DNA of 21,641 bases, from the NCBI GenBank assembly GCA_001460835.1, contig CYKH01000925.1:1-21641 (forward strand), given 5' to 3'. The notes under the pieces are model-generated. The model saw only the letters and a program-made list of their open reading frames with translations, did no database searches and was not told the origin of the DNA. Positions 3 through 18,700 of this stretch are shown in pieces. Origin of the DNA: Bodo saltans. Lineage: Eukaryota; Euglenozoa; Kinetoplastea; Eubodonida; Bodonidae. Made by a program: the position numbers and the translations under genes. Numbering within the stretch: position 1 is the first letter of the stretch; every line of letters starts with the position of its first letter.

Positions 3-758
3 GACTCGATCTTTCGGCTTTCTATGAAGACTCCGCATTCCCGTGACACGCAGCACAAGACGACGAATTACAATCGTGCTTTGCTATTTCAGAATTATGG
101 TCTGCCGCCATCGCACTCCTTTGCACATTACCCTGGCATTTATGATCGGTCCGTCTTGTCTCGCATGTTGGAGGACGAAGTCAAAGACGAAGCGGCGACG
201 ACACGAGCTGCCCGAATCCGAACTCAAGATAGTATTTGGACGACCATGGTGTACCCCTACGTGGCATTCGCGCATCGTCGAGCTGTTGACCGCAAGCTTG
301 TTGGCGAGCGCCTCAAGCTCTGGTCCCGAGAGACCGAATATGAAACGCTCAGCAAAGACGTCTCCCGCCTCGGTCCGCTGATGGACCCCAACTTTGGGCT
401 ACTCCCAGAAGCGTATCAAGGAGACATGTGGCTTCCAGACCATGCCGCCTCTATGGCCAAAGTTCAACCTCTCTCCGCAAGCATTGGAAATTATGGCCAC
501 ACGGTTGTAAGAGAAAAGTTGCGAGATTGGCTTGTCTCGATGGAGGACAAGGACGAATCGCTGTATCATTTTTGCATGATGACGTCTGGCGGCATGGTGA
601 TGATGTACCACCGAGAGCTGCAATCGAAAATGAAGTTGTTTGTGACCCTGAACGATGATTTGAAAGTGATCAGTCCATTCACCGCGGATTCTGTTCAAAA
701 CTTGTTAAAATTAGTGAGCAGTGACGCGCCGTCCTGTCCGTGGGAAATAGTGGGCTGA
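3..758 (+). CDS. Stealth-family phosphotransferase, C-terminal part (Stealth-A, partial at left edge)
   Basis: The frame is open from the window edge, so the ATG at 24 is internal: the residues before it (DSIFRLS) align with ADAIFKLT of the complete paralogue at 2175-5756. What is visible is Stealth conserved region 3 (NYNRALL, GLPPSHSFAHYPGIYDRS, TTRAARIRTQDSIW with conserved His, Arg and Asp) and region 4 (FVTLNDDLKVISP), ending in a natural-looking C-terminus. Stealth proteins (human GNPTAB and bacterial capsule polymerases are known members) transfer hexose-1-phosphate from a nucleotide sugar to a glycan hydroxyl. By eye it is roughly 70 percent identical to its downstream paralogue, with one much more similar tract at 198-283. 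The catalytic N-terminal half lies outside the window, so whether the gene is complete cannot be judged. Confidence 0.85.
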   Translation, partial: DSIFRLSMKTPHSRDTQHKTTNYNRALLFQNYGLPPSHSFAHYPGIYDRSVLSRMLEDEVKDEAATTRAARIRTQDSIWTTMVYPYVAFAHRRAVDRKLVGERLKLWSRETEYETLSKDVSRLGPLMDPNFGLLPEAYQGDMWLPDHAASMAKVQPLSASIGNYGHTVVREKLRDWLVSMEDKDESLYHFCMMTSGGMVMMYHRELQSKMKLFVTLNDDLKVISPFTADSVQNLLKLVSSDAPSCPWEIVG

Positions 759-2174: not shown

Positions 2175-5100
2175 ATGCACTCCATTAACAACACTTCACC
2201 ATCTAAGCAAAACGACGCGGTGGTCTCGATGTCACCGACCCCCTCTCCCTCAACACTCTCAGCGACGCCACCACCACCCCAAATTCAACCATCCCACTCT
2301 GCATCGTCCCTTGCGTTGATCACACTACACCGGTCCCTTTCCGAGGCGTGCCGACGGAGCTACCGGTGGAATGCAGTGCCTCAAGGCGACGCAGCGAACC
2401 ACTTGCGCGTGTGCCTTCTGCGGCGCGTCATTACACTGCTCCGTCGTGTTGCGCACACCACCGAGCCTGCCTCCACCAGAAACGCCTCCACGAAGGCGTT
2501 GACACGAGCGCAACACAACGCCACTCTCGCAGCGGTAGTATCCAGCAGTATCAGGCCATTGGCCCTTACAGACGCCGATGAGTTTAAAATGCTTATGTTG
2601 GAATCTTTATCGGTTGTGTTCCACGCAAACTCCATGAGCTCCGTCTTTTATTGCGAACAGACGCTAGTGGATGCCGTCAACGGACTGGCCGCTGACAACA
2701 TTGCTCTAGAAGATCTCGTCCAAGCGTCGCTAGTGGATTTGAATTCTGTTGGGGGAAATTTTACTGCTGGGGCGTCGGATTTCGATGTTGCTGACGAACT
2801 ATCAGTTCCACAGCAGCAACAGCAGCAGCATCACTTTTCGTCAACAACGCGGCAGCGTGCCGCTTTTTTATCGTCGCCATTCTTACCCACCTCACCGCCG
2901 GAAGGGGTCTCGATGAACAGCAGCGCAGCACTTCAACAGCAGCATCTCAACTCTTCCAACGATCGCATGCTCAACGGCTCCGCGTCACAGCTTTTTGGTG
3001 TCTCGCGGCCCGGGGGGTACAGTGGCCGCTACAGCGTCGCCACAGGTGCCACGAGAACTCGCATTAGTCCGTACAATGGCAGCAAGCTCCTCGCGATGTT
3101 GTCGCCTTCTTCCTTCGGGAAGCTTTGGTCGCGTCAAACACTTGTCATGATGCTGTTTGTTCTTGTGGTGGTGTCTCTCTCAACGTCCTTGCATGCGTGG
3201 AGAGATTTACGCCGCAACAATGGAAGCCCTACTGACGTCACGTCTTTTACGTTCGCTCCTCGTCGAGAGCGCCACAGGGAAATGCCACGCGAGTATGAAG
3301 AAGAGGGAGCTGCGGTGGTGCCTCCTATCGTCGTCGGCGGCGATGAGGGAAATCCCGATGGCAATAACTACGAAGAACAACATCAGGCGCTTGAGGTGGT
3401 GTTTGCGACACCCAATCCACTGCCGCCAAGGCCTCAACGCGATATTGCCGAGGATGCCGCACATCCACGGATTAGCAGGAAAAGAGCGGCGGAACTTTCA
3501 GAAGCAAAGAAGCAGCAGCAACCAGAAGAAAGAAAGGTGAAAGTTGATACTGTTCTCGAGGAGCTTAAAAAAAGAGAACAAGATTTGTTAGACAGTCTCC
3601 AACGGGAGCGCGCGTTGATTGCGGCACTCAACGGTGAGCAGCAACCTGTGTCAACCTCCTCGCCGCCAACTTCAACAATCGCCGCTAGCAACACTGCCGC
3701 GCCCGCCCCACCACTTCCATTTATTGCGCCAACTGTGGCGAATCCTTGCGGAGCCGATAGTACCAAGAACCCAAGTGGTCTCCCAGGAAGAAGCTATGAC
3801 CCTGTCGATAGCATCACCGCGCTCTCGTTTGACCTCACCGATGAGGATTTGGGCATCATATCGAAGCTAGAAACGGCAAAACTAGCCACACGCCACACAT
3901 TTATTCGGGACTTAATTGCACGTGCGATGGACGCGGACCCACGCGATGAACGCTCCTCGTACCACATGTTCTTCCAAGATCGTCATGCACGAATGGAAAT
4001 GGTCGATGCTCAAGATGAACTTGCGCTGATTCCGCTTTCAGATGAAAGCGCATTTCTCGCAAACAATAGTGATGAGAAGGTTTTACTACGTCATCGCATC
4101 CCAGGCACAGCGTGCCCCGCCATCCAACCCGCTCTCGTCGACGCCGTGTACACGTACGTCAACCCCAACAGCGCATCTCACAAGACTGCCGTCAAAGATT
4201 CTTGCAAAGCACGCGGCCGTGAGTGCAGCGACCACCGCTTCCGCGACTTCAACGAGCTCATGTACTCGCTGCGGTCTGTTCACCACCGTGGAGGGATGCA
4301 TTCGAACGAAGGCAATGATGAACGCAAACAACAACAGAACTCGGGGCGGTTTGTGGGCAACGTCTACATTGTCGTCGCGGATCGTGATCAGATCCCAGGC
4401 TGGCTTCGTCATGAACATGTCCCCTTGACTGATGAAGAGAAGAATCAACGAGAGAATCTTAACAAAGCACTTGGTGGGGATACAATGCGCCAAGAAAGTC
4501 GTGTGTATTCGGTCACGCACAAGGAGATCTTCCCGCCCGAGGTGCACGTTTTTTTCCGCCCGATCTCGCACGCGCGGCAGCAGTACCGCATCGAAACAAC
4601 GGTGGAGGGGCAGTGCCTTGCCGAGCACTTCCGTTCCGATGAGTCTCCAGTTGTCGGCGCTGAGTCCCCCACCGAAGCCCTCAAACCTCTTGCCGCCAAG
4701 AGTCGCCGAGCTGTTGTGTTTATGGAACCAATTCATTACTTCGAAAAACTAGGCGAAGCTGCTGATCGACGCATGACGCCCAAGTACGATCCTATTCCAC
4801 AAAAAGCTCCCGTTGTCATCTCGCAAGTCAGACAGCGAGTGATTCGTACTGGGCGTGGTCAAGCACTCATTCCTGTACCGCTCGTACAGCAGCCGGCATC
4901 AACACCTACCCCTCCACCGCCTCCTCCACCGGAATCCACGTACATTGCGTCGATAGTATCGAACGAGCAGAATAACGCCTCATGTGCCTTCACTCCTGCG
5001 AAAGCAGATGCCATCTTCAAGCTTACTATGAAAACACCCCGTGCCTCTGATCTGTTGCACAAGACGACCAACTACAATCGGAAGTTGTTGTTCACCTACT

Positions 5101-5756
5101 ACGGACTGCCCCCGTCCCACTCCTTTGCCCACTACCCAGGCATTTATGATCGTTCTGTGTTGAGCCGCATGATGGACGAAGAGCTAAAAGAAGACGTTGC
5201 CACGACACGAGCTGCCCGAATCCGCACGCAAGATAGCATTTGGACGACCATGGTGTACCCCTACGTGGCATTCGCGCATCGTCGAGCAGTCGACCGTCGG
5301 CTTGTTGCTGAAACGTTGAACTTATGGACACGCTTCACAACGTACACTGAGCTCAGCAAAGATGTTGGTCGACTTGGCCCATTGATGGACCTCAATTTCG
5401 GAGCGCTTCCTGAAGAATACCAAGGCGAAATGTGGCTGACAGACGACGCGGCAAATGCCGCACACCTTCGTCCGCTTTCAGCAACGCTAGGAAAGTTTGG
5501 CCACGCCATCGCGAAAGAGAAACTTCGAGATTGGGTCGTGACCATGGACAACAAAGATGAGGCCATTTACCATTTCTGTATGATGACCACTGGCGCCATC
5601 GTCAGCAAATATCATCGAGAGCTGCAAACAAAAATGAAACTGTTTGTCACGGCCAATGACGATTTGAAGATTGTGAGCCCTATCAGTGTGGATGCAGTTG
5701 AGGCGCTGATGATGCTTGTGAGTGGCGGTGCGCCCCCCGCGCCATGGGAACGTTAA
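2175..5756 (+). CDS. Stealth-family phosphotransferase, type II membrane protein (Stealth-B)
   Basis: 1193 aa. Residues 1-320 are a low-complexity, Ser/Pro/Gln-rich region with a Gln run near 213-218. A single hydrophobic segment near 321-342 (LVMMLFVLVVVSLSTSL) fits a signal anchor, putting the remainder in the Golgi/ER lumen. A charged coiled-coil-like stretch covers about 435-487. Stealth region 1 starts at V655 (VDAVYTYVNP, then NELMYSLRSVHH at 693 and NVYIVVADRDQIPGWL at 729). Region 2 is weak (CLAEHF at 814, VVFMEPIHYF near 847-856). A Pro-rich linker follows near 910-920. Region 3 has NYNRKLL (966), H986 and RTQD (1017-1020); region 4 has NDD at 1161-1163. The expected role is transfer of a sugar-1-phosphate onto a glycan; donor and acceptor cannot be read from the sequence. 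The Asp pair usual in region 2 is not evident, so activity is uncertain. Family assignment is firm. Confidence 0.9.
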   Translation: MHSINNTSPSKQNDAVVSMSPTPSPSTLSATPPPPQIQPSHSASSLALITLHRSLSEACRRSYRWNAVPQGDAANHLRVCLLRRVITLLRRVAHTTEPASTRNASTKALTRAQHNATLAAVVSSSIRPLALTDADEFKMLMLESLSVVFHANSMSSVFYCEQTLVDAVNGLAADNIALEDLVQASLVDLNSVGGNFTAGASDFDVADELSVPQQQQQQHHFSSTTRQRAAFLSSPFLPTSPPEGVSMNSSAALQQQHLNSSNDRMLNGSASQLFGVSRPGGYSGRYSVATGATRTRISPYNGSKLLAMLSPSSFGKLWSRQTLVMMLFVLVVVSLSTSLHAWRDLRRNNGSPTDVTSFTFAPRRERHREMPREYEEEGAAVVPPIVVGGDEGNPDGNNYEEQHQALEVVFATPNPLPPRPQRDIAEDAAHPRISRKRAAELSEAKKQQQPEERKVKVDTVLEELKKREQDLLDSLQRERALIAALNGEQQPVSTSSPPTSTIAASNTAAPAPPLPFIAPTVANPCGADSTKNPSGLPGRSYDPVDSITALSFDLTDEDLGIISKLETAKLATRHTFIRDLIARAMDADPRDERSSYHMFFQDRHARMEMVDAQDELALIPLSDESAFLANNSDEKVLLRHRIPGTACPAIQPALVDAVYTYVNPNSASHKTAVKDSCKARGRECSDHRFRDFNELMYSLRSVHHRGGMHSNEGNDERKQQQNSGRFVGNVYIVVADRDQIPGWLRHEHVPLTDEEKNQRENLNKALGGDTMRQESRVYSVTHKEIFPPEVHVFFRPISHARQQYRIETTVEGQCLAEHFRSDESPVVGAESPTEALKPLAAKSRRAVVFMEPIHYFEKLGEAADRRMTPKYDPIPQKAPVVISQVRQRVIRTGRGQALIPVPLVQQPASTPTPPPPPPPESTYIASIVSNEQNNASCAFTPAKADAIFKLTMKTPRASDLLHKTTNYNRKLLFTYYGLPPSHSFAHYPGIYDRSVLSRMMDEELKEDVATTRAARIRTQDSIWTTMVYPYVAFAHRRAVDRRLVAETLNLWTRFTTYTELSKDVGRLGPLMDLNFGALPEEYQGEMWLTDDAANAAHLRPLSATLGKFGHAIAKEKLRDWVVTMDNKDEAIYHFCMMTTGAIVSKYHRELQTKMKLFVTANDDLKIVSPISVDAVEALMMLVSGGAPPAPWER

Positions 5757-6467
5757 TGGATTTGCAAACAAGGTGGAGTGAACGTGTCTTTATTACACAG
5801 CAATTGTTCGAGAGCAACGCAAGTGGTGACGTGAAACTATACAAACAGTCCGTCATTTAGGTCCTTGCATGATTCTCTCGATGTTCCATCTGGGTTCAGA
5901 ATTGGGGAAACGAGGGGGAAAAAGATGGCAACGAACGTATCTCTCGCCAACTTGGAATGAAAAAAAAAGAAGTTAACCTTCCTGCTGATAGCGAAAACAA
6001 AGTCAGGGAAAAAAGGTTTCACTCGCGACATAAAAAGCAGCTTAACAACAACAAAACTTTGTATTAGGTGACGCCGTCGTCAATTCACTTTTTTTTGGCA
6101 ATAATATCAAAGAAGAAACACATATGCATATGTTGTGTGTGAATCAAATACTAAAACCCCCCTCTCCTCTATTTTGCTCGTCCTCCTTCTACTTTTATGT
6201 ACCGCCAGTGGAATCGCCATTTGCATGAGCTCCAAACAGAAGAACAACTGTCAGATTGATGTGAAGGGGACGCAGCTGTTTTATGACTCGCCCCCATCAT
6301 GAACTTTTTTTTCCCCCTCCATCTGCGGCCCAAAAAAAAAGAACGACATTGAGCGATTTACTCAAGTTGCTGTGTTTCTGTAGGTGCTCGTATGAGCGTT
6401 GCTATTTTATTTTTATTTTTCATTTTGTGTGTGTGTGTGTCGTATTTTATGCGTCTGCGTTTTTCCT

Positions 6468-6498
6468 GTTGTCATTATTTTTTTTCCCCTCCCATCAG
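6468..6498 (+). promoter_or_regulatory. Candidate spliced-leader acceptor
   Basis: A dense T/C tract (about 27 bases) ends in CAG with AG at 6497-6498, 51 bases before an ATG at 6550. The pattern equals that seen before the confident genes. Prediction only. Confidence 0.35.
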
Positions 6499-6549
6499 CT
6501 TTCCGAGTGTCCATCTTCCAACATTAGCACAGCGGTTGGAATTACGTTA

Positions 6550-6747
6550 ATGACTTCTGGTAGGAGAAAACCACAACTCACTGATGCGACAGGCCTATTG
6601 AAGAAAGTAAGAGCATTTTTTCGAGTAGCCGACATCGGCAAGAGACTTGGCGGCTTATCTACTGTAGCTTGTCGTGATGTACGTGAGTGTGATTTTCCCC
6701 CAGTTTTAGAGCATTACTCACAGTTTTTTTGTTCGCCCTCTGTGTGA
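6550..6747 (+). CDS. Small hypothetical ORF, 65 aa
   Basis: The longer frame beginning at 6283 runs through poly-T and is probably noise, but the in-frame ATG at 6550 comes right after a good polypyrimidine-AG site. The product is basic and contains an amphipathic-looking stretch (LLKKVRAFFRVADIGKRLGG). I recognise no domain. It may be a small gene, a remnant of a longer one, or chance. It lies between Stealth-B and the dead glycosyltransferase copy. Confidence 0.25.
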   Translation: MTSGRRKPQLTDATGLLKKVRAFFRVADIGKRLGGLSTVACRDVRECDFPPVLEHYSQFFCSPSV

Positions 6748-7017
6748 CATTCACCGACAGTGGGGAGGAGAAAAGCTGTCTCATTTTTGGTTAGTGTTTT
6801 TCCCCTCTTTCCAATTTTCTTTTCATCCCTCCCTTGTTTCACACTTACGTTACCTTCATATGTGTGTTTGTGAAGCACTCTCTCTCTATCTCTCCTACTC
6901 AATACCGCATGAGTTTTACTTCTTTTTGTGGTTTGCCGGACGAGACGTTTTTGATCTTTCGTGCAGTGCACTTTTTGTTTTATGTTTGCTGGAACGTATT
7001 GTAACCAGACACACACA

Positions 7018-7085
7018 CGATATCTTGTCGTTGTTTGATATGAAAGGCCTACGAGATGACGCGATGTGCTCTGAACCTCACTGAT
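7018..7085 (+). repeat. Copy 1 of a 68-bp block upstream of the glycosyltransferase copies
   Basis: Aligns without gaps to 11921-11988 with 7 differences (about 90 percent identity). Both copies sit just upstream of a polypyrimidine-AG site and the glycosyltransferase reading frame. Weaker similarity extends left to about 6980. It shows that the duplication carried the upstream region along with the gene. Confidence 0.8.
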
Positions 7086-7109
7086 ATTTTTGCCTACCTT
7101 TTTAGGACG

Positions 7110-7584
7110 AAGAGGGAGAGAGAGCGCAACGTCGTTGCGCCGCTATTATCGAATGAGCGGCGTGGCCCAACACATCCCCAACAAAATGTGCTGCATCGTA
7201 ATGACGTAAAAGAAACACCACCGCGAATGGTCATCTGCTTGCTCATGGATGGAATGCAGGAAGCCGCCGCTCGATGGACCTCGCCTTCAGTGCAGGCTCC
7301 AACTCAACGGTGAAGAAGACACGAAGTGGCTTCGAGAAGAATCGATCCTTGGGGAGCTGCCCCAACCAGGTGAAAAAGACGGTGACATTATGGTACCAAC
7401 GAACATCACGTACACGTTCATGCCATTAGACGAGGCCCAACTTTCTCATTAGATGCGTGACATTGGCCACGTACCGACGCATCGTACAGGCGCTGCGGGG
7501 AATGTAAAGTTCTTCTACCCACAACTTCTACCCCACGAAGAGAAGGTGCTCATGCAAGGCAGCGACGTGCTGGTCGATAGAGAT
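7110..7584 (+). pseudogene. Broken GT8-type glycosyltransferase copy
   Basis: Closely matches the intact gene at 12156-13652 but is plainly dead. Similarity starts near the intact gene's codon 68, so the N-terminal membrane anchor is missing. Several deletions and frame changes occur between 7245 and 7310. A Trp codon (TGG in the intact gene) has become TAG at 7450-7452. The DSD motif reads GSD, losing the first metal-binding Asp. Similarity stops abruptly just after the DSD region, at about 7584, so the C-terminal half of the enzyme is absent. The stretch before the DSD motif (about 7455-7555) differs from the intact gene at only about three positions in 100, so the copy is recent or was recently homogenised. 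Confidence 0.9.
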
Positions 7585-8105
7585 GATAGCCACAAGCATA
7601 CCTTCTGCAAGGCAACCAAAAGCATTCAACTCCATGGAGGAGACTTGGTGCGAGAATACACGAGGTTTGCTCTCCTCAGCCACGATTCTGAGTATCACTG
7701 GCGCTCTTGGAGATGTACTACGCTCTGTCGGAGTTCCTTGAGGCCGAGAAGTTGTGCTTGACGAATACGTTCAAGGCCTCATCGGCATCATCTGGAACCG
7801 CGGCGTATTTACGAGGGTGCCTGATCTATCTAACTTTTTTTTATTCGCAACACTGTTCTACGTTTTGCTGTTAATCACTTCTTTTGTGTGTGTTTGTACA
7901 ATCATCAAGCATTCGCTAGAGAAGTCTCCATTCAGTGATGCATTGTTTTCATCTCTTTTTTTTTCTGCAATAGCCGCATCTCTCTTAAATTCACAACACT
8001 ATTCAACAGTACTCTGCATCCCTTTTTTTGTGCAATCTCAATGTTTTGTGTTGTGTTTTTTCTTGTCTGATCATAATTGCTAGAGAAATCTCTCACATTC
8101 ACACA
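7585..8105. other. Unassigned sequence between the broken glycosyltransferase and the membrane protein
   Basis: Right of the breakpoint at 7584 the sequence no longer resembles the glycosyltransferase gene. From 7692 to about 7840 one frame (ATG at 7713) gives roughly 40 residues with coding-like composition (MYYALSEFLEAEKL), with no recognisable domain. From 7830 to 8080 it is T-rich spacer; the hydrophobic translations there follow from base composition. A T-rich tract ending in TAG (8082-8083) lies 23 bases before the ATG at 8106 and could be a spliced-leader acceptor. Confidence 0.45.
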
Positions 8106-11100
8106 ATGCAACACAGCTCGGCCCGCTACAACCAACGTCACACAAAGCAAGAGGAGGCATGTTGCCATACTACAGGAGTTTCTGCTGCGACACAGCAGAA
8201 CTACACTATTACGGCAAACAGAAATACAGGGACACCTCTAAACTTCAAAAGGATCCTCAACAAGAACTATATCCCAGGCTCCATCGTTTTTATCAACAAG
8301 CTCCCGGAACATGGAACCCTAGTCGGTGTTCTTGGCAATGAAGTGGCGATCGGCGGGTCCACGGACGGAAACACCTTCACGTACCGCTCCAACCCAGATT
8401 ATCCCGCAGACGGCGTGAAGATGAGCTTGGATACAATTGGATTTCGTGCTGTGGCTCAAGGAGATGATGAAGTCACCGGACTGCTTGCCATTCAAGTCAC
8501 CCTCCGAGAACTGTTTATCAAAAACTACACCCTCAGGGCAACCGAGAGTACGACACCGTTGAAACTTCAGCTGCGCGCCCGTCAAGGCAACGCTATTGTG
8601 TCGCTTAAGGACCGTACCTTGCAAAGCGTTCAAATTGAAGCGCTCCCGACCAATGGTTGCATCGTCAAGCAAGCCGATGGCACCGTCATCGCATCTGCTC
8701 CAACTAAAGTTGTTGATGCTTTGCAAAACATTCTCGTGATTCCCGCTCCTGAGATGCAAGTCGGGGAGAGCTGCACGTTCAGCTATTCCGCAACACGAAG
8801 CAACGGCATCTCCACAAAACCAGCGTTTGTAACCCTAACGCGAGTTGAGCGGGGCACACTGAAGCCGCGTGCGTACAACACAAACTCCGTGTACAACGTT
8901 GATTTTGACGTCTCAAGAATGCTAGAGTTGATAGGATCCACACGCATTCCCGACTCGAACTTAACCTTCATTATCACAAAGCTCCCCGCATTCGGTCAAG
9001 TGCATGACGTGATGGACACAACGACCACACAGCTTCCAGAGTTTGGCCTCAGCGCCTCGTCGCTGCCGATTACCCTCTACGTCGGGCCCAAGACTCGTAT
9101 TGTGCTTGTGTACCAGGTCAGCCCTACACTTGTTCCCAACGCTACCACTGTCTCGCTTGAGTACATTGTGAAGGACAAGTTCGCTACATCCGCCCCCGCC
9201 AAGGTGAACATTATTCTGGACAAGAAGGGTTCCCCTATCTGCGGTGATGTGGTCATCTCCTGTGTTCTGGGACCGCCCCGTGAAGGACATAGTCCTGAAC
9301 TTCACGAACCCCAATGCTCGCACTGTGCAAAAGTTGATCCTCGTGAAGACTCCTGCGAAGCCTCTCGGTGATCTCCTCTACTCTCACACGACCATTCTCC
9401 GTCAGCGCAAAATCCGCCTACAACCTGGCAACTACTTCTCCGACGAGGACAATCGCTTGTCGTACCAAGTCCGCCCCTCAATGAAGCGGACTAGCGGCAA
9501 CGAGACGTACCTCTTCCGTGTTCAGAATTTCGATTGGATGTCATGTGTCGGGAAGGTCACGTTTATCGTTATGCAGCACGATGCACAAGTCGTTCCTGAT
9601 GCGAAGCTTAACATTCGTCGCGAAATTGTCCGCTTGAACGGGTACACCCCTTTGCCACTGTGGGGAACAGCGAATAAGACAATCGTCAGGCCCTCGTCTG
9701 TAATTCTGTCAACGAGCCCAACTTATGGCTCCATTTATCAACTGACTGAAGATGCCCCATACGACGCAGGCAGAATGTATCGCGTCAACCTTACAACCTG
9801 GCAACTACTTCTCCGACGAGGACAATCGCTTGTCGTACCAAGTCCGCCCCTCTATGAAGCGGACTAGCGGCAACGAGACGTACCTCTTCCGCGTTCAGAA
9901 TTTCGATTGGATGTCATGTGTCGGGAAGGTCACGTTTATCGTTATGCAGCACGATGCACAAGTCGTTCCTGATGCGAAGCTTAACATTCGTCGCGAAATT
10001 GTCCGCTTGAACGGGTACACCCCTTTGCCACTGTGGGGAACAGCGAATAAGACAATCGTCAGGCCCTCGTCTGTAATTCTGTCAACGAGCCCAACTTATG
10101 GCTCCATTTATCAACTGACTGAAGATGCCCCATACGACGCAGGCAGAATGTATCGCGTCAACCTGCTTGGTCAAGCGCGATCTTACTGCGTTCGTCGTAA
10201 CTGTGAGGACTACCGTGGCGATGCCGTCAATTCCGGTGATAAAGTCTTTCGCAAGGAATTGTGGGAAGAGGAGGGTCTCACAGAAAGCACACGTTTCTGG
10301 ATCTTGTACAAAGCCCCTGCGAGCCTCCCAGAAGGCACCACGCTTAACACTTTCACAGACACGTTTGAGTATCATTTCTTCAATGATGCAGGACAACAGA
10401 GCGAAGTCCAGCGTGTGACGATTTCATTCCGCAAAGCCGTCAAACGCGTCGTTGAATGCCGCTACACCGTCAATGATCTTCCCGATCTCAACTTCGATCG
10501 CCAGCAACAAACGTTCATCAAGTGCGTGTTGTCAAACGCGACAAATCAAGCGGTGATGATTCCTGAGTTTGATAAATATCGCCGCCACGGTGCGGAGGTC
10601 AACTTCCGCATGTTTCAGTTCCGCCAAGATGGCAATCGCATGTACACTGGCGATCGGCTCGCAAACACGTCGCGCGACAATGTCGTCGGTATGTGGCTTG
10701 ATAATCAGAACACTGTGCTCGTCGTACCTTCGGCCCGAGCGCGCACAATCAACTTCCAGTTTCGTGCTATGATTTACAATCTCACATCCTCAGGCGTCCT
10801 CGCACCTCCTCCCGAGTTAGTGCGAGTGCGCGTGATTCGTGACAACACTCCGCCGTTTTGGAACTACGACTACATCACTGAAAGTGGTACGTTAGAACTA
10901 TCAACAGGGGTCACAAAAGCGATTGATGTGACCGCGGAAGACCTTGAAGACGACCTGCTCCAGTTTCGGCTTGCGCAAGGCGTGTCAAAAGGCGTTTTGT
11001 ACTTCGAGGATCTGCGATTTGGTATTGGCACTTTGACGATTGTCGAAACTGGCTCCGTTATGCGTGTCCCCAAGGGTGCAATCGCTCGCCAGACCGCTCG

Positions 11101-11437
11101 CTTTTATTACAAAGTAGACAGCCGTGAGGGGTGGACGTATCCTCAGTACGACAACTTCACGCTCTACGCCGATGGTGGTGGTGTGCTGTCGCTTGCGTTG
11201 GTGTATAACATTACCATCACGAGCGATGGCAATGCCAATGTGTCGCAAGGAAAGTCCTTCACTGTCTCATTCAGCACTGTGGTGTTCGCACTTCTTACCG
11301 TTGTCGCCGTGTTGCTGATAGCGTTAGCAGTGGTGCTTCGCCGAAGGGGCATGAACAAGTTTACGTCGCTTTCAGCCGACACAGAAAGTGATGACGGCAA
11401 TGACCCAACGGCATCCAAAGAGCAAAGTGATGAGTGA
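8106..11437 (+). pseudogene. Large type I membrane protein with repeated cadherin/Ig-like domains, frame-disrupted
   Basis: One protein is spread over three frames: 8106 to about 9250, about 9250 to 9791, and 9792 to 11437. The first shift is a small indel; the second is caused by the 373-bp duplication at 9419-10164. The translation shows repeated extracellular-type modules, each with a KLP..G.(L/V) strand and a later LEYIVKD or F.Y.V segment (for example INKLPEHGTLVG, ITKLPAFGQVHD), resembling cadherin-like or VCBS/CSPG-type beta-sandwich repeats. A membrane segment at about 11280-11337 (FALLTVVAVLLIALAVVL) is followed by RRRG and a short acidic tail. The first ATG (8106) gives no signal peptide, although such a protein would need one, so the 5' end may be lost as well. 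It would be a cell-surface protein if intact. Assembly error is an alternative explanation for the frame breaks. Confidence 0.75.
9419..10164 (+). repeat. 373-bp direct tandem duplication (9419-9791 and 9792-10164)
   Basis: Two adjacent copies in perfect register differ at only two positions that I found: A at 9480 versus T at 9853, and T at 9519 versus C at 9892. The unit is 124 codons plus one base, so it shifts the reading frame. Reading out of copy 1 into copy 2 meets a stop at 9865-9867. Confidence 0.95.
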
Positions 11438-11451
11438 GGAAATGTTTGGAA

Positions 11452-11640
11452 TTCGCCCAAGAAATGGAACAACATGGGGGATCGGATCTCGAGAAGACCA
11501 GTGGTTACAAATCATACTTCGACGAGCCGACTCTGGGGTCCAATCCGGCGGGACAAGCTCAGACGAGACGCGCAGCGCTTGCACACGAAGAGGGGGCCGT
11601 TTCAACTCCATCTTTTGACCCGCATGGTCTACTTTCCTCG
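11452..11640 (+). pseudogene. Coding-like extension of the membrane protein tail
   Basis: Past the stop at 11435-11437, another frame reads a plausible hydrophilic cytoplasmic tail (EFAQEMEQHGG, then LEKTSGYKSYFDEPTLG, AHEEGAVSTPSFDPHG) until T-rich spacer begins near 11650. A third frame bridges the two with EEMF between about 11436 and 11450. The simplest view is that the tail was once longer and has lost register through two small indels close to 11435 and 11450. An unrelated small ORF is less likely. Confidence 0.45.
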
Positions 11641-11766
11641 TCAAGCAAGCACCGTTTTCATTTTTTTCAAAACATTTGCAAAAATTTCCAGAACTGCCAA
11701 CTTTTTTGCTCCATTGGGGCGTACAAACCATAAACGCGGCACTCCCTTACCTGGAAGGGGGGTGCT

Positions 11767-11869
11767 GCGAAGGAGAAACTGCGAGATTGGGCAGTGACCA
11801 TGGACAACATAGACGAGGCCATTTCCCATTTCTGTATGGTGACGTCTGGCGCACATCGTCAGAAAATAT
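11767..11869 (+). pseudogene. Stealth gene remnant (C-terminal coding fragment)
   Basis: The frame reads AKEKLRDWAVTMDNIDEAIS then HFCMVTSGA, matching residues just before region 4 of Stealth-B (DNA at about 5511-5615). Nucleotide identity is high, and closer to Stealth-B than to Stealth-A (shared gtgaccatggacaacat/a and gaggccattt words). One extra base near 11852 breaks the frame. Neither the rest of the gene nor region 4 follows. It lies directly upstream of the glycosyltransferase, the position Stealth-B holds relative to the broken glycosyltransferase copy. Confidence 0.85.
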
Positions 11870-11920
11870 TGTTTTCTCTTTTCGCTCGAAAGTTTTGTTA
11901 TTAGATACACTCACACTGCG

Positions 11921-11988
11921 CGATATTTTGTCGTTGTTTGGCATGAAAGGTCTACGAGATGACACGATGTGCTCTGAAACTCACCGAT
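11921..11988 (+). repeat. Copy 2 of the 68-bp block upstream of the glycosyltransferase
   Basis: Partner of 7018-7085, about 90 percent identical. It lies 168 bases upstream of the glycosyltransferase ATG and just before a polypyrimidine tract. The block contains an ATG-led frame conserved in both copies (MKGLRDD.MCSE.H), but substitutions include amino acid changes, so coding is doubtful. Confidence 0.8.
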
Positions 11989-12004
11989 GTGTATGTCTAT
12001 CATC

Positions 12005-12027
12005 AGTTTTTGTTTTTTTTTTCTTAG
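12005..12027 (+). promoter_or_regulatory. Candidate spliced-leader acceptor for the glycosyltransferase
   Basis: A run of almost only T ends in CTTAG with AG at 12026-12027, about 130 bases before the ATG at 12156. Later AGs without a good tract lie closer (for example near 12098). Prediction from pattern only. Confidence 0.4.
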
Positions 12028-12155
12028 AGGAGAGAAACAGGAACGCACTTGACCAAAATGGTCTGACCAGTCTCTCGCACTTAAAGTTCAAGTGTTAGCA
12101 GCAATTGGGTGGGAAGACAAGATTGGTCTCGAGGCAAATCATAACAACAGTTACA

Positions 12156-13652
12156 ATGTTCTCCACTGCAGTACGCCTTCGAATCATTCTCGTGGTTCTG
12201 TCAACAGTTGCCATTCTTCAGTTGCACAATGTACTGACGAGGACATCTGTTTTCATTCTTGACCGTGAGACTCCTCTCCCCATATCCCCTGACCAACCAC
12301 AAGTCGCGAAGACGCAAATCACGGAGCCTCTGATTGGTATGGAGAGCGACAACGTCACTGCGCAGCCGCTGTTATCGAATGAGCGGCGTTGCCCATCGCA
12401 TCCCCAACAAAATGTGCTTTATCGTAATGACGTAAAGGAAGTACCACCACCGCGGATGGTCATCTGCATGATAGCTCATGGATGGAAAGCACAAGGCTAC
12501 GAAGACGTAAATTCTATCAAAGGAAGTCGCCGCTCGATGGACCTTGCCTTACGAGGTATTCTACGAAGAGTCTCCAATAAATGCAGGCTCTCCAATAAAT
12601 GCAGGCTCCACTTTTACTTTATCACTGGAGAAGAGGACGCGAGGAGGATTCGAGAAGAATCGATCCTTGGGGAGCTGCTCCTACAAAATAAGGAGGGGAA
12701 CAGCGGTCGCATCATAGCACCAACGAACATTACGTTCACGTTCATGCCGTTAGACGAGGCCCAACTTTCTCATTGGTTACGTGACATTGGCCACGTTCCG
12801 ACGCATCGTACAGGCGCTGCGGGGAATGTGAAGTTCTTTTACCCACAACTTCTACCCCACGAAGAGAAGGTGCTCATGTTGGATAGCGACGTGCTGGTCG
12901 ATAGAGATATTTGTGAACTCTGGGAGCACTTTCAGTTCTTCCCGCGAGATCAACTGTTTGCGTTTGCGCCACAGAAAGTTCCGATGCAGATCAGCAAGGA
13001 TAACCAGTTCAACGCAGGTGTGGCGCTGCTTCACCTGGAGCGCATGCGTCAAGCCAATTGGTTGACGTTGGCGCGCAGTTCTATTGCAGCCTGGGATGCA
13101 TCGCCGTCACAATCTCCCAAGTGTTGTGCTCATGGAGACCAGTCGGTATTCCATATGGTGCGCTGGTACAGACCTTTGGTGTTTCAATATGTACTTCCAC
13201 GGTGGTGGAACTTGAACAAATGCCACAGCTACATGAAGTTCGAAGAGCATTACCGAAGATTTATAGATCGAAGAAACACGGAAAGCCACCAGAGGAAGAA
13301 GCGATGCTGGTTGCTTAACGACCTCTCGAGCAACAGCACCACTTTAGCTCAAGTTATTGAACACACGAAGGTGACGCCGAAGTTTTCTGAGCTTGTCATT
13401 CAGACTGAACACTCCCCACAACAGTCACATGGAGCTTTGAATCATCAACAGGAGCGCTACGTCATGGATGGTACGAAGCCACTACTTGATGAGGAAGACG
13501 TTTTTGTTGGTATCGTGCATTTAGGGTGCTGCAAGAGGTGCTCACGGCGCCATTTGAAATCATCTGCTCGATGGCAGCGGTTGCTTGCCGACATCGAGGC
13601 GTTTGATGCCGTTGCAATGCGCCGCAAACTCAAAGCATTGTCGAGAGCGTAA
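12156..13652 (+). CDS. GT8-type glycosyltransferase (GXYLT/LARGE-like), type II membrane protein
   Basis: 498 aa from the ATG at 12156; the frame upstream has no other ATG. Residues about 6-26 (VRLRIILVVLSTVAILQLHN) form a signal anchor, so the enzyme should face the Golgi/ER lumen. Motifs follow the order expected for a GT-A fold, retaining-type GT8 enzyme: HRTGAAGNVKFFYPQLLP, the metal-binding DSD at 243-245 inside KVLMLDSDVLVDRD, FNAGVALLHLERMR from 285, HGDQSVF from 326 and a late His in IVHLG (455). It would transfer a sugar from a UDP donor; which sugar and acceptor are not readable. An 18-bp tandem duplication adds six residues near 140-151. It is the intact partner of the broken copy at 7110-7584 and follows a Stealth remnant. 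All key motifs look intact. Confidence 0.85.
   Translation: MFSTAVRLRIILVVLSTVAILQLHNVLTRTSVFILDRETPLPISPDQPQVAKTQITEPLIGMESDNVTAQPLLSNERRCPSHPQQNVLYRNDVKEVPPPRMVICMIAHGWKAQGYEDVNSIKGSRRSMDLALRGILRRVSNKCRLSNKCRLHFYFITGEEDARRIREESILGELLLQNKEGNSGRIIAPTNITFTFMPLDEAQLSHWLRDIGHVPTHRTGAAGNVKFFYPQLLPHEEKVLMLDSDVLVDRDICELWEHFQFFPRDQLFAFAPQKVPMQISKDNQFNAGVALLHLERMRQANWLTLARSSIAAWDASPSQSPKCCAHGDQSVFHMVRWYRPLVFQYVLPRWWNLNKCHSYMKFEEHYRRFIDRRNTESHQRKKRCWLLNDLSSNSTTLAQVIEHTKVTPKFSELVIQTEHSPQQSHGALNHQQERYVMDGTKPLLDEEDVFVGIVHLGCCKRCSRRHLKSSARWQRLLADIEAFDAVAMRRKLKALSRA
12572..12607 (+). repeat. 18-bp exact tandem duplication inside the glycosyltransferase
   Basis: Two exact copies of ctccaataaatgcaggct, in frame, encode SNKCRL twice. 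The broken copy of the gene has only one partial match at this site, in a region with deletions. Confidence 0.9.
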
Positions 13653-13832: not shown

Positions 13833-15518
13833 ATGAACGAGGCGACTACATTGCGCCTTCATGAATCGCTCAGCCAAAGCCAGGCCGTTTTCCATCGAGC
13901 CGCTTCGACACCACTGTTGGGCCCAAGTACCATTCCCCATCCCGCACTGGGCAATCTTTTTTCACCAGATAATAGCCATGTCACAGCCTCTGTCATGGCT
14001 TCAATGCAACAAACAGTGGAGAAGCTTATCTTGCGAGTCGCCAAACTTGAGAGCCTCGTATTCTTGTTAGAAACCGAACGAAACACTGGAGGGGGAGGAT
14101 CAGGCTTGCTGTCAAGCGGATCCACCGTCAACCTGTTTCAAGACGTGCGAGCAACGTTGTATGAGACAATGGAGCCCGTTCGAGAGCAACTTCGACGACA
14201 CGAGGCCATCCTCATGGACGTGGTGCAGTCCCTTAACCATGCTGCGGGGTGGGGCTACTACAAACAGCGCAGTAGTGGCGATGCCGCTCCGCCCTCTCCA
14301 CGACAAGGTGAACATCATCAAGGAGCAGGCAACGTTTCCTCGAGAAAGCATGCGGCCGCTACCGCATCAGCGCCCCTAGCTCAAGGCACTCGCCAACGCA
14401 AGAACAGTCTTGGCAGAGAAGACGACGACGACAACGTAAAGCACCATGATCAACCACATCACAACAACGACGCGTTCGTTATGGTGTCACCCCTTACAAA
14501 AGCAGACACATCGCATCTCACCGCCGCTACGGCGTCGTTCATGCCGATCGTCCAAGTTGATCCGAGCACCGCAAACTTGGAAGAACGAATTGTCAGAATG
14601 CGGCGCCTTGCGGGAGCTTTAGGCAGCGGTGTTCCGCTTGGGTCGGCCACTGTCTCCCCAAGGAAAAGCCGCAAGGATAACAAAGACAAGAAGAAGAAGA
14701 AACATCACCACGAGTCGGACGATACCTCATCAGCCACGAGTTCCTTCTCTGAGAGTGACCAGTCACCGATTCGACACCACTACACAACTACAACAGAGGT
14801 TGAGTCCTCGACACAGCCCAATGCAACATCCTCTGGGGCAACGACAACCACAACATTTATCGATGAGGCGACGTCAACAGCGTCAGATGCACGTCATTAT
14901 CTTCAGCATCATCATGGTACCGGAGGCGACACCACGACCAATGATGAGGCGAAGGAGTTGATTCACAACGTGAAGAAGATCCTCCGCAAGACTGGTGACG
15001 ATGCAGGCGGCATCGCTGCCACTTCTGGTTTAGAAACTACGTCCACGACCACTACGACGACAACCAACAGCTCACTCCTTCTTCATCAGCAGCGCCACTA
15101 CAATGGCAATACATCAACGCACCTTAGCACCCCGCAGCGCGCTGTGAGGTTCGGGTTGGATGATTCGTTGGCAACTCCGCTCCCTGCCCGATACCAGACG
15201 GGTTCTATGTTTGGTGCTGGTGGTGGTGGTGGGAGAATGGTCACCAGCGATACAACGTCTACATCGTCAACATCGGGCAACCATCATCACACTCACAACG
15301 ATCCCTCCAACTATTATCGTACAGGTGTTCAACTTCTTCAGAGCCCAGGATCTGCAACATCGTTTCAACAAAGCAGACTGTTAGCCAACAACAACGCGTA
15401 CCCCCAGCATTACGCCACCGGGAGCGGTGCCTTGCGCTCTGGGCCACTGGACTTTCCTCAAGACTCCTCAAGCTTGAGCGATGGGTACCAAGAGTTGTTG
15501 AAGCGAATGCATATGTAG
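13833..15518 (+). CDS. Hypothetical low-complexity protein with short coiled coil
   Basis: 561 aa starting at the ATG at 13833; an in-frame upstream extension has only a TTG. I recognise no family. A short helical, coiled-coil-like segment spans about residues 55-85 (QQTVEKLILRVAKLESLVFL), followed by a second helical stretch to about 135 (TMEPVREQLRRHEAILMDVV). The rest is low complexity: Asp runs, a Lys run followed by His near 281-290, Thr runs, Gly runs and Ser-rich segments, with a short basic helix near 370-385 (AKELIHNVKKILRKTG). There is no signal peptide or membrane segment, so it is probably cytoplasmic. The structure would suit a scaffold or cytoskeletal protein, but that is a guess. 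It is the first of two intact genes after the glycosylation cluster. Confidence 0.8.
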   Translation: MNEATTLRLHESLSQSQAVFHRAASTPLLGPSTIPHPALGNLFSPDNSHVTASVMASMQQTVEKLILRVAKLESLVFLLETERNTGGGGSGLLSSGSTVNLFQDVRATLYETMEPVREQLRRHEAILMDVVQSLNHAAGWGYYKQRSSGDAAPPSPRQGEHHQGAGNVSSRKHAAATASAPLAQGTRQRKNSLGREDDDDNVKHHDQPHHNNDAFVMVSPLTKADTSHLTAATASFMPIVQVDPSTANLEERIVRMRRLAGALGSGVPLGSATVSPRKSRKDNKDKKKKKHHHESDDTSSATSSFSESDQSPIRHHYTTTTEVESSTQPNATSSGATTTTTFIDEATSTASDARHYLQHHHGTGGDTTTNDEAKELIHNVKKILRKTGDDAGGIAATSGLETTSTTTTTTTNSSLLLHQQRHYNGNTSTHLSTPQRAVRFGLDDSLATPLPARYQTGSMFGAGGGGGRMVTSDTTSTSSTSGNHHHTHNDPSNYYRTGVQLLQSPGSATSFQQSRLLANNNAYPQHYATGSGALRSGPLDFPQDSSSLSDGYQELLKRMHM

Positions 15519-15774: not shown

Positions 15775-18700
15775 ATGCCTTCATCTTCAGCAGCTTCGCC
15801 TCCGAGAGTCCCCACAAGGCGCCTTGGGTCTGCGTCTCCTAGAATATCATCTTATGTCGCCTCCTCAACCAGCGGTTCGCCCCCATCGGCATCGTCGTCA
15901 TCATCGACAACAACCATTTCTTCTAAACCGCCAACTGGACCTCCAGCGCCGTCATCATTGTCGGTTGCATCAAACCATGCTACTGGCGATGCGCCGCCAG
16001 TCGTCACCAACCGCTTCGCCATCAGCAGTGCCTTCATGGTAATGAAGAAGGCAGACGATCAGCACACTGAGCAACGCCAAATTGAGGAGAAGCGCACACA
16101 ACACGTGCTCAGCTCAGCCAGCAATGAGATGATATGGAAAAACCTCACGCTGCAACGGCGCCAGAGTTTTGGTCAAACCGCTGCGATGCAGTTAGACCTG
16201 CCAGAGGATAGTGACGGCGCATTAAAGTCAGGACAGCAAGCAGTGTTATCACCCAAAACTCCGTCATCCTCGTCGAGACCACAGTCCTCACACGTTCGAT
16301 TAAACTCAGCCACTCCAACAAGGCGGCGTCCATCGGCGGACGGAAGTCCTGGAGGGTGGAATAATTGCGAGGATGCCAGTGCCGTTGCTCAGGGAGTCGT
16401 CTCAGACCTTCGCACCCTCGCAGCGAAGTTTGCGCATCGAGTCGATGTGCAGCGTGCGAATCTTTCTCATCTCGGGATTGAGGTACCGTCGTCCTTCACT
16501 GTAAAACCACCGTCGACATCCACTGCAGGCGCTATGGGGCGACGGCGAGGCCCACCGACAACACGACCGCAATCAGGCCGCCGATCACTAGGAGGAGAGG
16601 CGCCCATCTCCCCCACCTCAGCATCATCACCGCCGTCAGTACCACGCGCTGCGATCCGCAGCGCCAACCATCAAATCGTCACGTCTCTCGTTGTCCCTGC
16701 GAAGCTTCCTATTGCATCCTCCGTCACCCCGTACCTCGTCGCCTACGAGCGTCAAGGCAATATGGACTTCTACACAGATGTGTCGAAACAATCCCGCCAA
16801 GAACTTAAAACCCATATCCTGATGATCGACTACCTTGATCGTGCTTGGAGCTCCATTCCCAAAACAATTCCTTCGGGGGAATACATCAACATTGAAATAT
16901 TCAAGTGGATGCATCGGTTGATGTACGATCACTTTTGTTGTGCAGATGCCAACGAACATGTCTGGGCACAAGTTGTAGTGGAGGATTGGCGAATGTACGG
17001 TGGCGTCACAGCGGCAACGCCTCATCCGAAAGAGTCAACCAATCTAGCCACCATCGCAAAGATCTCATCACCTGTGGTGGTAGTTGCAGGGATGGACGAG
17101 GTGAATCATAGCGCCCTTCATTCTAGCAGCAGCAACAGCGACGCTGTCAGCACGGCTACAGTGGCGTCATCATCAGCACCAGCAGCAGCAGCTGGCAATC
17201 TTGGAAACCTTAGTATCGGGACTAGTATTGCTAATAGTAAGAGAGCAGCACAAGCAGTGATCATGGATCGAACAGGATTTGACAACTTCCTTTTTGCGTT
17301 TGTGGATGTTTGGTCCCAGACGCTCGATGTGCAAGAGTATCTGGCGCTCGGTGAAGAGACCTTAAAGGTAGTTGTGATGGAGGGCGCACCATACAGTGGC
17401 CCTCTCTGTGAGACGGAGGAGGGTCTGGAAGCGTACCGCGTCGCTGCAGCGTTGCAGCAGCAGCAACAGCGCGCTGCGGCAGTTAACGCCACCGACAAAC
17501 ATCACGGTAGTGGTGGAGGGAGGAATGGAGCTGCGGATGGCAACCACAATAGCAACAGTAACGGCATTAGTGTAGCAGGAGGAGGGGCACCATCGTCATC
17601 ATCGCCTGAAATCCCTTGGACAAAAGACATGGTGGTGGAGGCGGCAGAAATTCGCTCTTTGCAGGCAGTGGCAGCGGCACAACAGACATCCAAAGTGGTG
17701 GATGCATTGGCTACGATGGGTAAGTCGGATCTGGGTGTCACTGAGGCGAAGCAGCTTCAAGGATTTATTCGCGTCGTGTGTGACATCGAAGAACGAGAAG
17801 AAGATGAACTCCGCCGGCTGACATTTTGGGCGAATACATTTGTGGAGGACGTCACCAAGCGGTGCTGGTGGCTCCTTCAGCACGAACCGACGACAGCACA
17901 AAATTCTGGAGGCGCTTCGCCTCTTGAGGAACGTGATCAAGAAGGAGGAGAGAGGGGTGGAAGTCCAACAACAACGACGTCGACAGGGTCTCCCTCCCCA
18001 TCATCGTTGTCATCGCCGGTTGTGTTGGCTACAACCAACGAAGAAGTGGACACGACGACGACGGCGATCGCAACTGAAAATAAGTCCATAGCCGTCATTA
18101 TCAAAGATATTCAGCATCTGTTGTCGACCCATTCCACTGACGTCGCTGAGTTTAGTGACGCAGAGGGATCTGAGCGACGTAGCATCGTTGCCGCTGTATC
18201 GCGCCTTCTGGAGGCGGTCGCAACTGCAGTCGCAGAACGCGATGGATCGTCTGAGCACTCCCACAACGCAACTGACATCAGTGAAGTTCGAAAAAAAATC
18301 ACCGCTCATTGGAAAGTGGGGTCCAACGAGAAGCGAAAATTGCGTGGGACTCTACAGCGCGCGCTCACAGAGCTCAAGGCAGCATTCCGCCCGGCCTTGG
18401 AGAACAGCAACAGTGGCGGTGTTGCTTTAAGTAGCAACTCCATTGGTGGTGCAACAATGGATGCCGTCGCTACTGTCTCTGTCTCCGCAGAGGAGCGCAA
18501 TCTCGGCCTTGTCCTTCTTAGGGAGCTGGATGAAATGAGTCGACAAGCAGTCCTTGACGCAGCTCGCGCACAAGAGGAAACAACGCTTGTTGAGTTCCTC
18601 TCCGCAGAACTCGCCGCCCAACGGCCACTGACGTCGCTAATGGAAACCGCACTCGGTAATGCCCAGGAAGCCTCGAAAGCCAATGCAAAACGCCAGGTCA

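Follow-up and report, generated by a model that had tools for sequence, protein, structure and literature searches.

Probable gene-family turnover beside a Stealth gene array in the kinetoplastid Bodo saltans

Stealth-domain proteins are not new in kinetoplastids, since Leishmania entries are already in print, and for the pair LinJ.16.1030a and LinJ.16.1040 repeat regions are mentioned as well (PMC9769760; PMC5498541). In the human PTase, Glu-389 was described to contact the sugar, and the exchange of Asp-408 for Ala is among the changes that diminish or abolish activity (PMC11418123). In African trypanosomes, queries with GT6, GT8 and GT77 for one class of galactosyltransferases gave no convincing matches, according to a passage in a review (PMC9472816). 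Here, we analyze a window that is the entire contig C414 of the Bodo saltans genome assembly (CYKH01000925.1; 21,641 bases), which carries a Stealth gene, termed gene B, a GT8-family glycosyltransferase gene and a decayed copy of the latter; all long open reading frames (ORFs) discussed here lie on the plus strand of the window. The assembly searched comprises 29.3 Mb in 934 contigs, and its other contigs are referred to by C numbers. With a probability of roughly 0.7, we read this locus as gene-family turnover beside a Stealth array, in which local partial duplication, insertion, deletion and decay left one probably working GT8 gene together with a Stealth pseudoenzyme or dying gene.

BLAST comparison of the window with itself revealed three plus-strand matches, which are colinear and occur in the same order in both halves. 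These are the 3' end of a Stealth gene (5511-5612 versus 11767-11869; 88% identity, E 5e-31), a GT8 upstream and leader block (6975-7096 versus 11869-11999; 77% identity, E 3e-22) and GT8 coding sequence (7120-7584 versus 12342-12908; 73% identity with gaps, E 2e-106). The repeat coordinates are those of BLAST; a global alignment of the two halves misplaced the leader block. This colinearity supports a local duplication that extends from the 3' end of Stealth into GT8. The original prediction had described two tandem Stealth-GT8 gene pairs decayed in complementary fashion and had suggested a dot plot of the window against itself, and three colinear repeats are what such a comparison finds. The order and identity of its pieces, namely Stealth gene, dead GT8 copy, broken membrane protein, Stealth fragment and GT8 gene, were confirmed by self-comparison, Pfam and the reading frames. 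The elements of the two halves are:

2175 to 5756, plus strand: Stealth gene B, an open frame of 1193 codons with the CR2 core missing (identity to the C415 Stealth gene; Pfam)
4548 to 4554, plus strand: CR2 deletion point; relative to the C415 gene, 126 bases (42 codons) are missing here in frame (DNA alignment to C415)
5511 to 5612, plus strand: Stealth 3'-end repeat, left member
6975 to 7584, plus strand: decayed GT8 copy with its upstream block, lacking the start and the C-terminal half, with internal gaps and one stop (self-comparison, alignment)
11767 to 11869, plus strand: right copy of the Stealth 3' repeat, a fragment abutting the GT8 upstream block (self-comparison)
11869 to 12155, plus strand: upstream block and 5' leader of GT8 (by the match of 11869-11999)
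12156 to 13652, plus strand: GT8-family glycosyltransferase, 498 codons (Pfam PF01501; LARGE1 match in the PDB)

In the right half the Stealth piece and the GT8 leader block abut at 11869, and in the left half 1,362 bases, made up of the Stealth end and intergenic DNA, separate them. The claim that each half carries a Stealth sequence followed by the same upstream block and GT8 is therefore correct for the order in both halves, while direct succession is found on the right only. The simplest account of this spacing would be a single duplication followed by a deletion in the right half. With 88% identity to gene B and 73% to the C415 Stealth gene, the right Stealth fragment is of local origin. 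It amounts to only about 100 bp, so that of the duplicated two-gene cassette proposed originally a local duplication from the Stealth 3' end to GT8 is retained on grounds of colinearity, but a second full Stealth gene is not.

Gene B is homologous to CR2-bearing Stealth proteins, being 52% (residues 42-749) and 67% (residues 793-1193) identical to the Stealth gene of C415; its hydropathy profile contains one strong hydrophobic segment (residues 323-341) and a borderline peak at residues 1164-1182. The Pfam CR2 profile matches with 16.5 bits at its positions 1-17 only, compared to a cut-off of 39.4, and CR2 with its LPxFNSxxIE motif and NDD-type core is absent from gene B and present in seven other Stealth genes. 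The BLAST matches flanking the gap join 4500-4548 and 4554-4787 of the window to 10511-10559 and 10691-10918 of C415. The missing stretch aligns with a segment of PTase 7s6n that opens with a run of ten residues and leads to YLNDD, the full stretch lost corresponds to 29 residues of the same protein, and Glu-389 and the NDD at 406-408 of the human PTase fall, by spacing, within it. Among the six other Stealth proteins of the genome that were aligned, leaving out the split C517 gene, 62 columns are invariant. Gene B matches 39 of these and differs at three, and the remaining 20 lie in one CR2 gap, so that the frame is open and yet the gene can no longer be called intact, as had been predicted. 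At the junction, the D and Y of a DYFRP motif that is invariant in the six other proteins are changed. By alignment, gene B retains the equivalents of Arg-322, His-956 and Arg-986, with the His and Arg of the latter two being invariant columns, and an ANDD motif would represent the Asn-1151 equivalent. CR3 is weak in gene B (E 0.027; 14.8 bits) and below the cut-off of 24.2. Because the CR2 core is lost, gene B should not transfer sugar-phosphate, and the expectation that one working gene of each kind was left would not hold on the Stealth side.

Silent-site identity between gene B and the C415 gene is raised around the gap, with 0.76-0.85 in three windows (codons 751-830; 4425-4664), and in a second patch with 0.72-0.84 (codons 999-1058; 5169-5348), compared to 0.11-0.71 in the remaining windows of gene B. 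This and several other points weigh against the turnover reading. Outside the gap gene B is well kept, as it agrees with the others at 39 of the 42 remaining invariant columns, and of its three mismatches two adjoin the gap. The raised silent identity near the gap suggests gene conversion and would equally fit a mix-up of paralogues during assembly. The loss of CR2 may be very recent, gene B may have kept some role, or the gap may have arisen in assembly. Finally, the order of events proposed below follows parsimony, and the published Bodo saltans assembly, for which Illumina sequencing is described, had gaps closed by software (PMC4728078).

Among the alternatives, an assembly or gap-closing fault at CR2, which would make gene B a normal active Stealth enzyme, survives best; we consider it doubtful, yet deserving of serious weight. 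It is compatible with the duplication history, and the odds of the two overlap. The high conservation of gene B elsewhere, the raised silent identity around the gap and the software gap closing all agree with such a fault, and the third-position GC of 0.90-1.00 in this part of the C415 gene could favor sequencing drop-out. However, the reading frame is kept across the gap, the stretch contains no N, and the bases at the DYFRP junction are changed rather than being a clean join of C415-like sequence, which speaks for a real deletion event. Gene B has thus been inactivated recently, is preserved as a pseudoenzyme or was corrupted by the assembly.

We regard it as unlikely that gene B has been retained as a pseudoenzyme, which has lost catalysis and acts as a structural or regulatory partner of active Stealth paralogues. 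Its 1193-codon frame is open, invariant columns outside the gap are largely kept as stated above, and the human PTase is a dimer (PMC11418123), but a recent loss would look alike. Slightly less likely still is the more specific proposal of a selectively retained, catalytically dead paralogue, which arose when the CR2 core was lost cleanly and in frame and which might partner and tune active Stealth enzymes of the array.

The GT8 gene at 12156-13652 is intact as predicted, with an open frame and a Pfam Glyco_transf_8 (PF01501) score of 32.2 bits over profile positions 88-203 of 253, above the cut-off of 24.3. Hydropathy indicates an N-terminal hydrophobic segment at residues 5-28. The nearest match in the PDB is the GT8 domain of LARGE1 (E 3.7e-07), followed by XXYLT1 (E 0.0033). 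The DSD motif aligns with DTD of LARGE1, and HGDQ and HLGCCK were read in the sequence by eye; DSD and HLGCCK may represent the DXD motif and the C-terminal His metal ligands of GT8 enzymes. An in-frame 18-base tandem repeat at 12571-12606 duplicates SNKCRL, and the leader contains a pyrimidine-rich stretch and an AG near 12005-12030. The left copy is dead, in agreement with the original description, as it spans only residues 66-252 of 498, is gapped and contains one in-frame TAG. Over 129 codons, one of which is the stop in the left copy, the two copies differ by a synonymous divergence (dS) of 0.27 and a nonsynonymous divergence (dN) of 0.07, and the resulting dN/dS of about 0.27 argues for constraint in at least one lineage. 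The right GT8 gene is probably active. In viral contigs and prokaryote genome contigs no GT8 relatives were confirmed by scans that reach close relatives only and have little bearing on origin.

Between the two halves lies a block with a source elsewhere in the genome. Positions 7623-11511 match C913:2745-6177 in pieces of 79%, 91%, 90% and 91% identity, which run through coding as well as intergenic DNA. Matches by tblastn to the end of a SET/TPR gene begin at 7525 and 7593 and the DNA match begins at 7623, so that the left edge is approximate; the SET domain is present in the C913 gene. The block contains:

7593 to 11511, plus strand: segmental copy of C913 (about 2745-6177) with a SET/TPR gene end, an intergenic stretch and a broken membrane-protein gene (DNA pieces, tblastn)
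8106 to 11437, plus strand: frame-broken membrane-protein pseudogene (comparison with the C913 relative)
9419 to 10164, plus strand: 373-bp tandem duplication inside this pseudogene (99.5% identity)

On C913, the relative is open over 985 residues and has hydrophobic segments close to both ends (8-26 and 938-956). That the membrane protein of the window is broken, as had been noted, was confirmed, its frame being interrupted and carrying the tandem duplication; the gene is a copy from the C913 locus. The block of about 3.9 kb is foreign to both halves, and the membrane protein belongs to neither unit. The silent divergence of the block (dS 0.21 and 0.15) is comparable in magnitude to that of the GT8 copies, and the left GT8 copy is no longer recognizable where the block begins. 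A link of the first ORF of C415 to the membrane protein was rejected, as tblastn gave no match at E 1e-4. A stretch of about 104 bases (11647-11750) matches the terminal part of C440 in the opposite orientation and is perhaps a dispersed repeat.

Under the turnover reading, a segment reaching from the 3' end of gene B into GT8 would have been duplicated in tandem, and the copy of the C913 segment would have been placed between the halves, thereby terminating the left GT8 copy. Deletions would have brought the Stealth remnant on the right up against the GT8 leader, and the left GT8 copy would have lost its start in the same way. The remaining GT8 would be a LARGE-like type II membrane enzyme of the Golgi, which might transfer a sugar from a nucleotide-sugar to a glycan in a metal-dependent manner by means of its DSD motif. 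It is improbable that the GT8 and Stealth pieces are ectopic fragments, scattered separately without a tandem unit. The region is indeed a patchwork with the C913 block and the C440-like repeat, but order and strand are the same in both halves, the Stealth and GT8-leader pieces abut, and the Stealth fragment is nearest to gene B of its own locus.

The turnover took place beside a sizeable gene family. Seven other Stealth genes exceed the Pfam CR2 cut-off, two on C645 and one each on C72, C415, C517, C521 and C875, and the gene of the window does not; including partial genes, the family comprises nine or ten genes. The Stealth and GT8 counts from the genome search are lower bounds, as the assembly may be incomplete, contigs are short and C415 and C645 contain stretches of N. 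On C415, a full Stealth gene is accompanied by the 5' part of another (C415:12597-14303), which is cut by the contig end, and the original prediction had left out both the C415 Stealth genes and a further partial gene at the start of the window:

3 to 758, plus strand: C-terminal part of upstream Stealth gene A, truncated where the contig begins (251-aa frame)

Gene A is 70% identical to residues 945-1192 of the gene B protein, with a weak CR3 of 15.6 bits, below the cut-off of 24.2, and it may form one gene with the cut gene at the end of C415 across an assembly gap. On C415 and C645, Stealth genes adjoin other Stealth genes in tandem. The seven paralogues with a CR2 core have NND where PTase 7s6n has NDD. 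None of the seven reaches the CR3 cut-off; five score 13.8-21.3 and two (the second C645 gene and C875) are unlisted at E <=1. The C517 gene (3887-7683) is split over two overlapping frames and may be broken or mis-assembled, and the CR1-CR2 part of the C415 gene (C415:about 9690-10740) has its third-position GC of 0.90-1.00 above the rest of the gene. A profile built from seven Stealth genes, gene B among them but not C517, retrieves CpsY (E 4e-23) and four sequences of PTase type in the PDB, namely 7s6n (5e-22), 9bgg (4e-19), 7s05 (2e-18) and 7dxi (5e-15; labelled FI02838p). Ten weak PDB matches (E 0.035-0.59) of the N-terminal 562 residues of the C415 protein, a part without CR2, and the single weak NCBIfam match of this protein (E 0.074) were taken as chance, and gene B and GT8 have no match in NCBIfam. 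Array members keeping the core, such as the C415 gene, would transfer sugar-phosphate.

A GT8 was found on C414 only by protein search and on C414 and C150 by Pfam, and no Stealth match was found on C150 in the genome search, which is a lower bound; the GT8 domain of C150 falls in the stretch 4462-9999, inside a very long open frame. Stealth-GT8 adjacency was found at one locus only in the genome assembly, with no second case among the seven other CR2-bearing Stealth genes, again as lower bounds. The original prediction had itself named a lack of further adjacencies in the genome as its refutation, and the idea that the Stealth-GT8 link is a new system is not borne out within this search. Moreover, transcription is polycistronic in trypanosomatids (PMC4728078), and if the same applies here, adjacency is weak evidence. 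A functional cassette making a phosphoglycan, which was duplicated whole and lost one member in each copy, would explain the colinear Stealth-end and GT8 repeats and the constraint on the GT8 copies (dN/dS about 0.27), but is very unlikely given the second Stealth of about 100 bp, a gene B without CR2 core, the lack of a second adjacency and the neighborhood of Stealth genes to other Stealth genes on C415 and C645.

Titles and abstract beginnings of the open-licence literature describe no Stealth-GT8 pair in kinetoplastids among the matches listed, nothing was found there on LARGE1 together with GT8 or kinetoplastids, and the word stealth does not occur in the main text of the Bodo saltans genome paper (PMC4728078). 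The genome encodes paraflagellar-rod proteins (nine matches, best E 9e-105), which fits a kinetoplastid, as do the pyrimidine tracts and long plus-strand frames of the sequence; a genome search for a spliced-leader consensus, allowing at most two mismatches, found nothing. Two further long open frames of the window (13833-15518 and 15775-21147) have no Pfam family over cut-off.

The locus corrects a tempting inference, as neighboring genes with shared repeats do not make a pathway. Its modest significance lies in the loss of the core in gene B and in the size of the Stealth family: with nine or ten genes, one of them without catalytic core, sugar-phosphate transfer in kinetoplastids becomes testable with the core-bearing paralogues. 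Compared to known systems, the Leishmania proteins LmjF.16.1010, LinJ.16.1030a and LinJ.16.1040 are likewise kinetoplastid Stealth-domain proteins, a likeness drawn from their description, and the passages on them mention no GT8 (PMC9769760; PMC5498541). The GT8 of the window matches the GT8 domain of LARGE1 and XXYLT1 in sequence across residues 210-373, a stretch that takes in the DSD/DTD position as well as the NxG and DQ motifs. Unlike LARGE1, with its second catalytic domain, the GT8 of the window has one GT8 domain only. The Stealth genes of this genome resemble GNPTAB and bacterial CpsY, seven of them carrying CR2 over the cut-off and the profile finding CpsY and PTase structures. In contrast to these, they have a long N-terminal region, in which a strong hydrophobic segment lies at a place that varies among the genes scanned. 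The seven core-bearing paralogues have NND in place of NDD, CR3 is under the Pfam cut-off wherever scanned, and gene B has no CR2 core at all.

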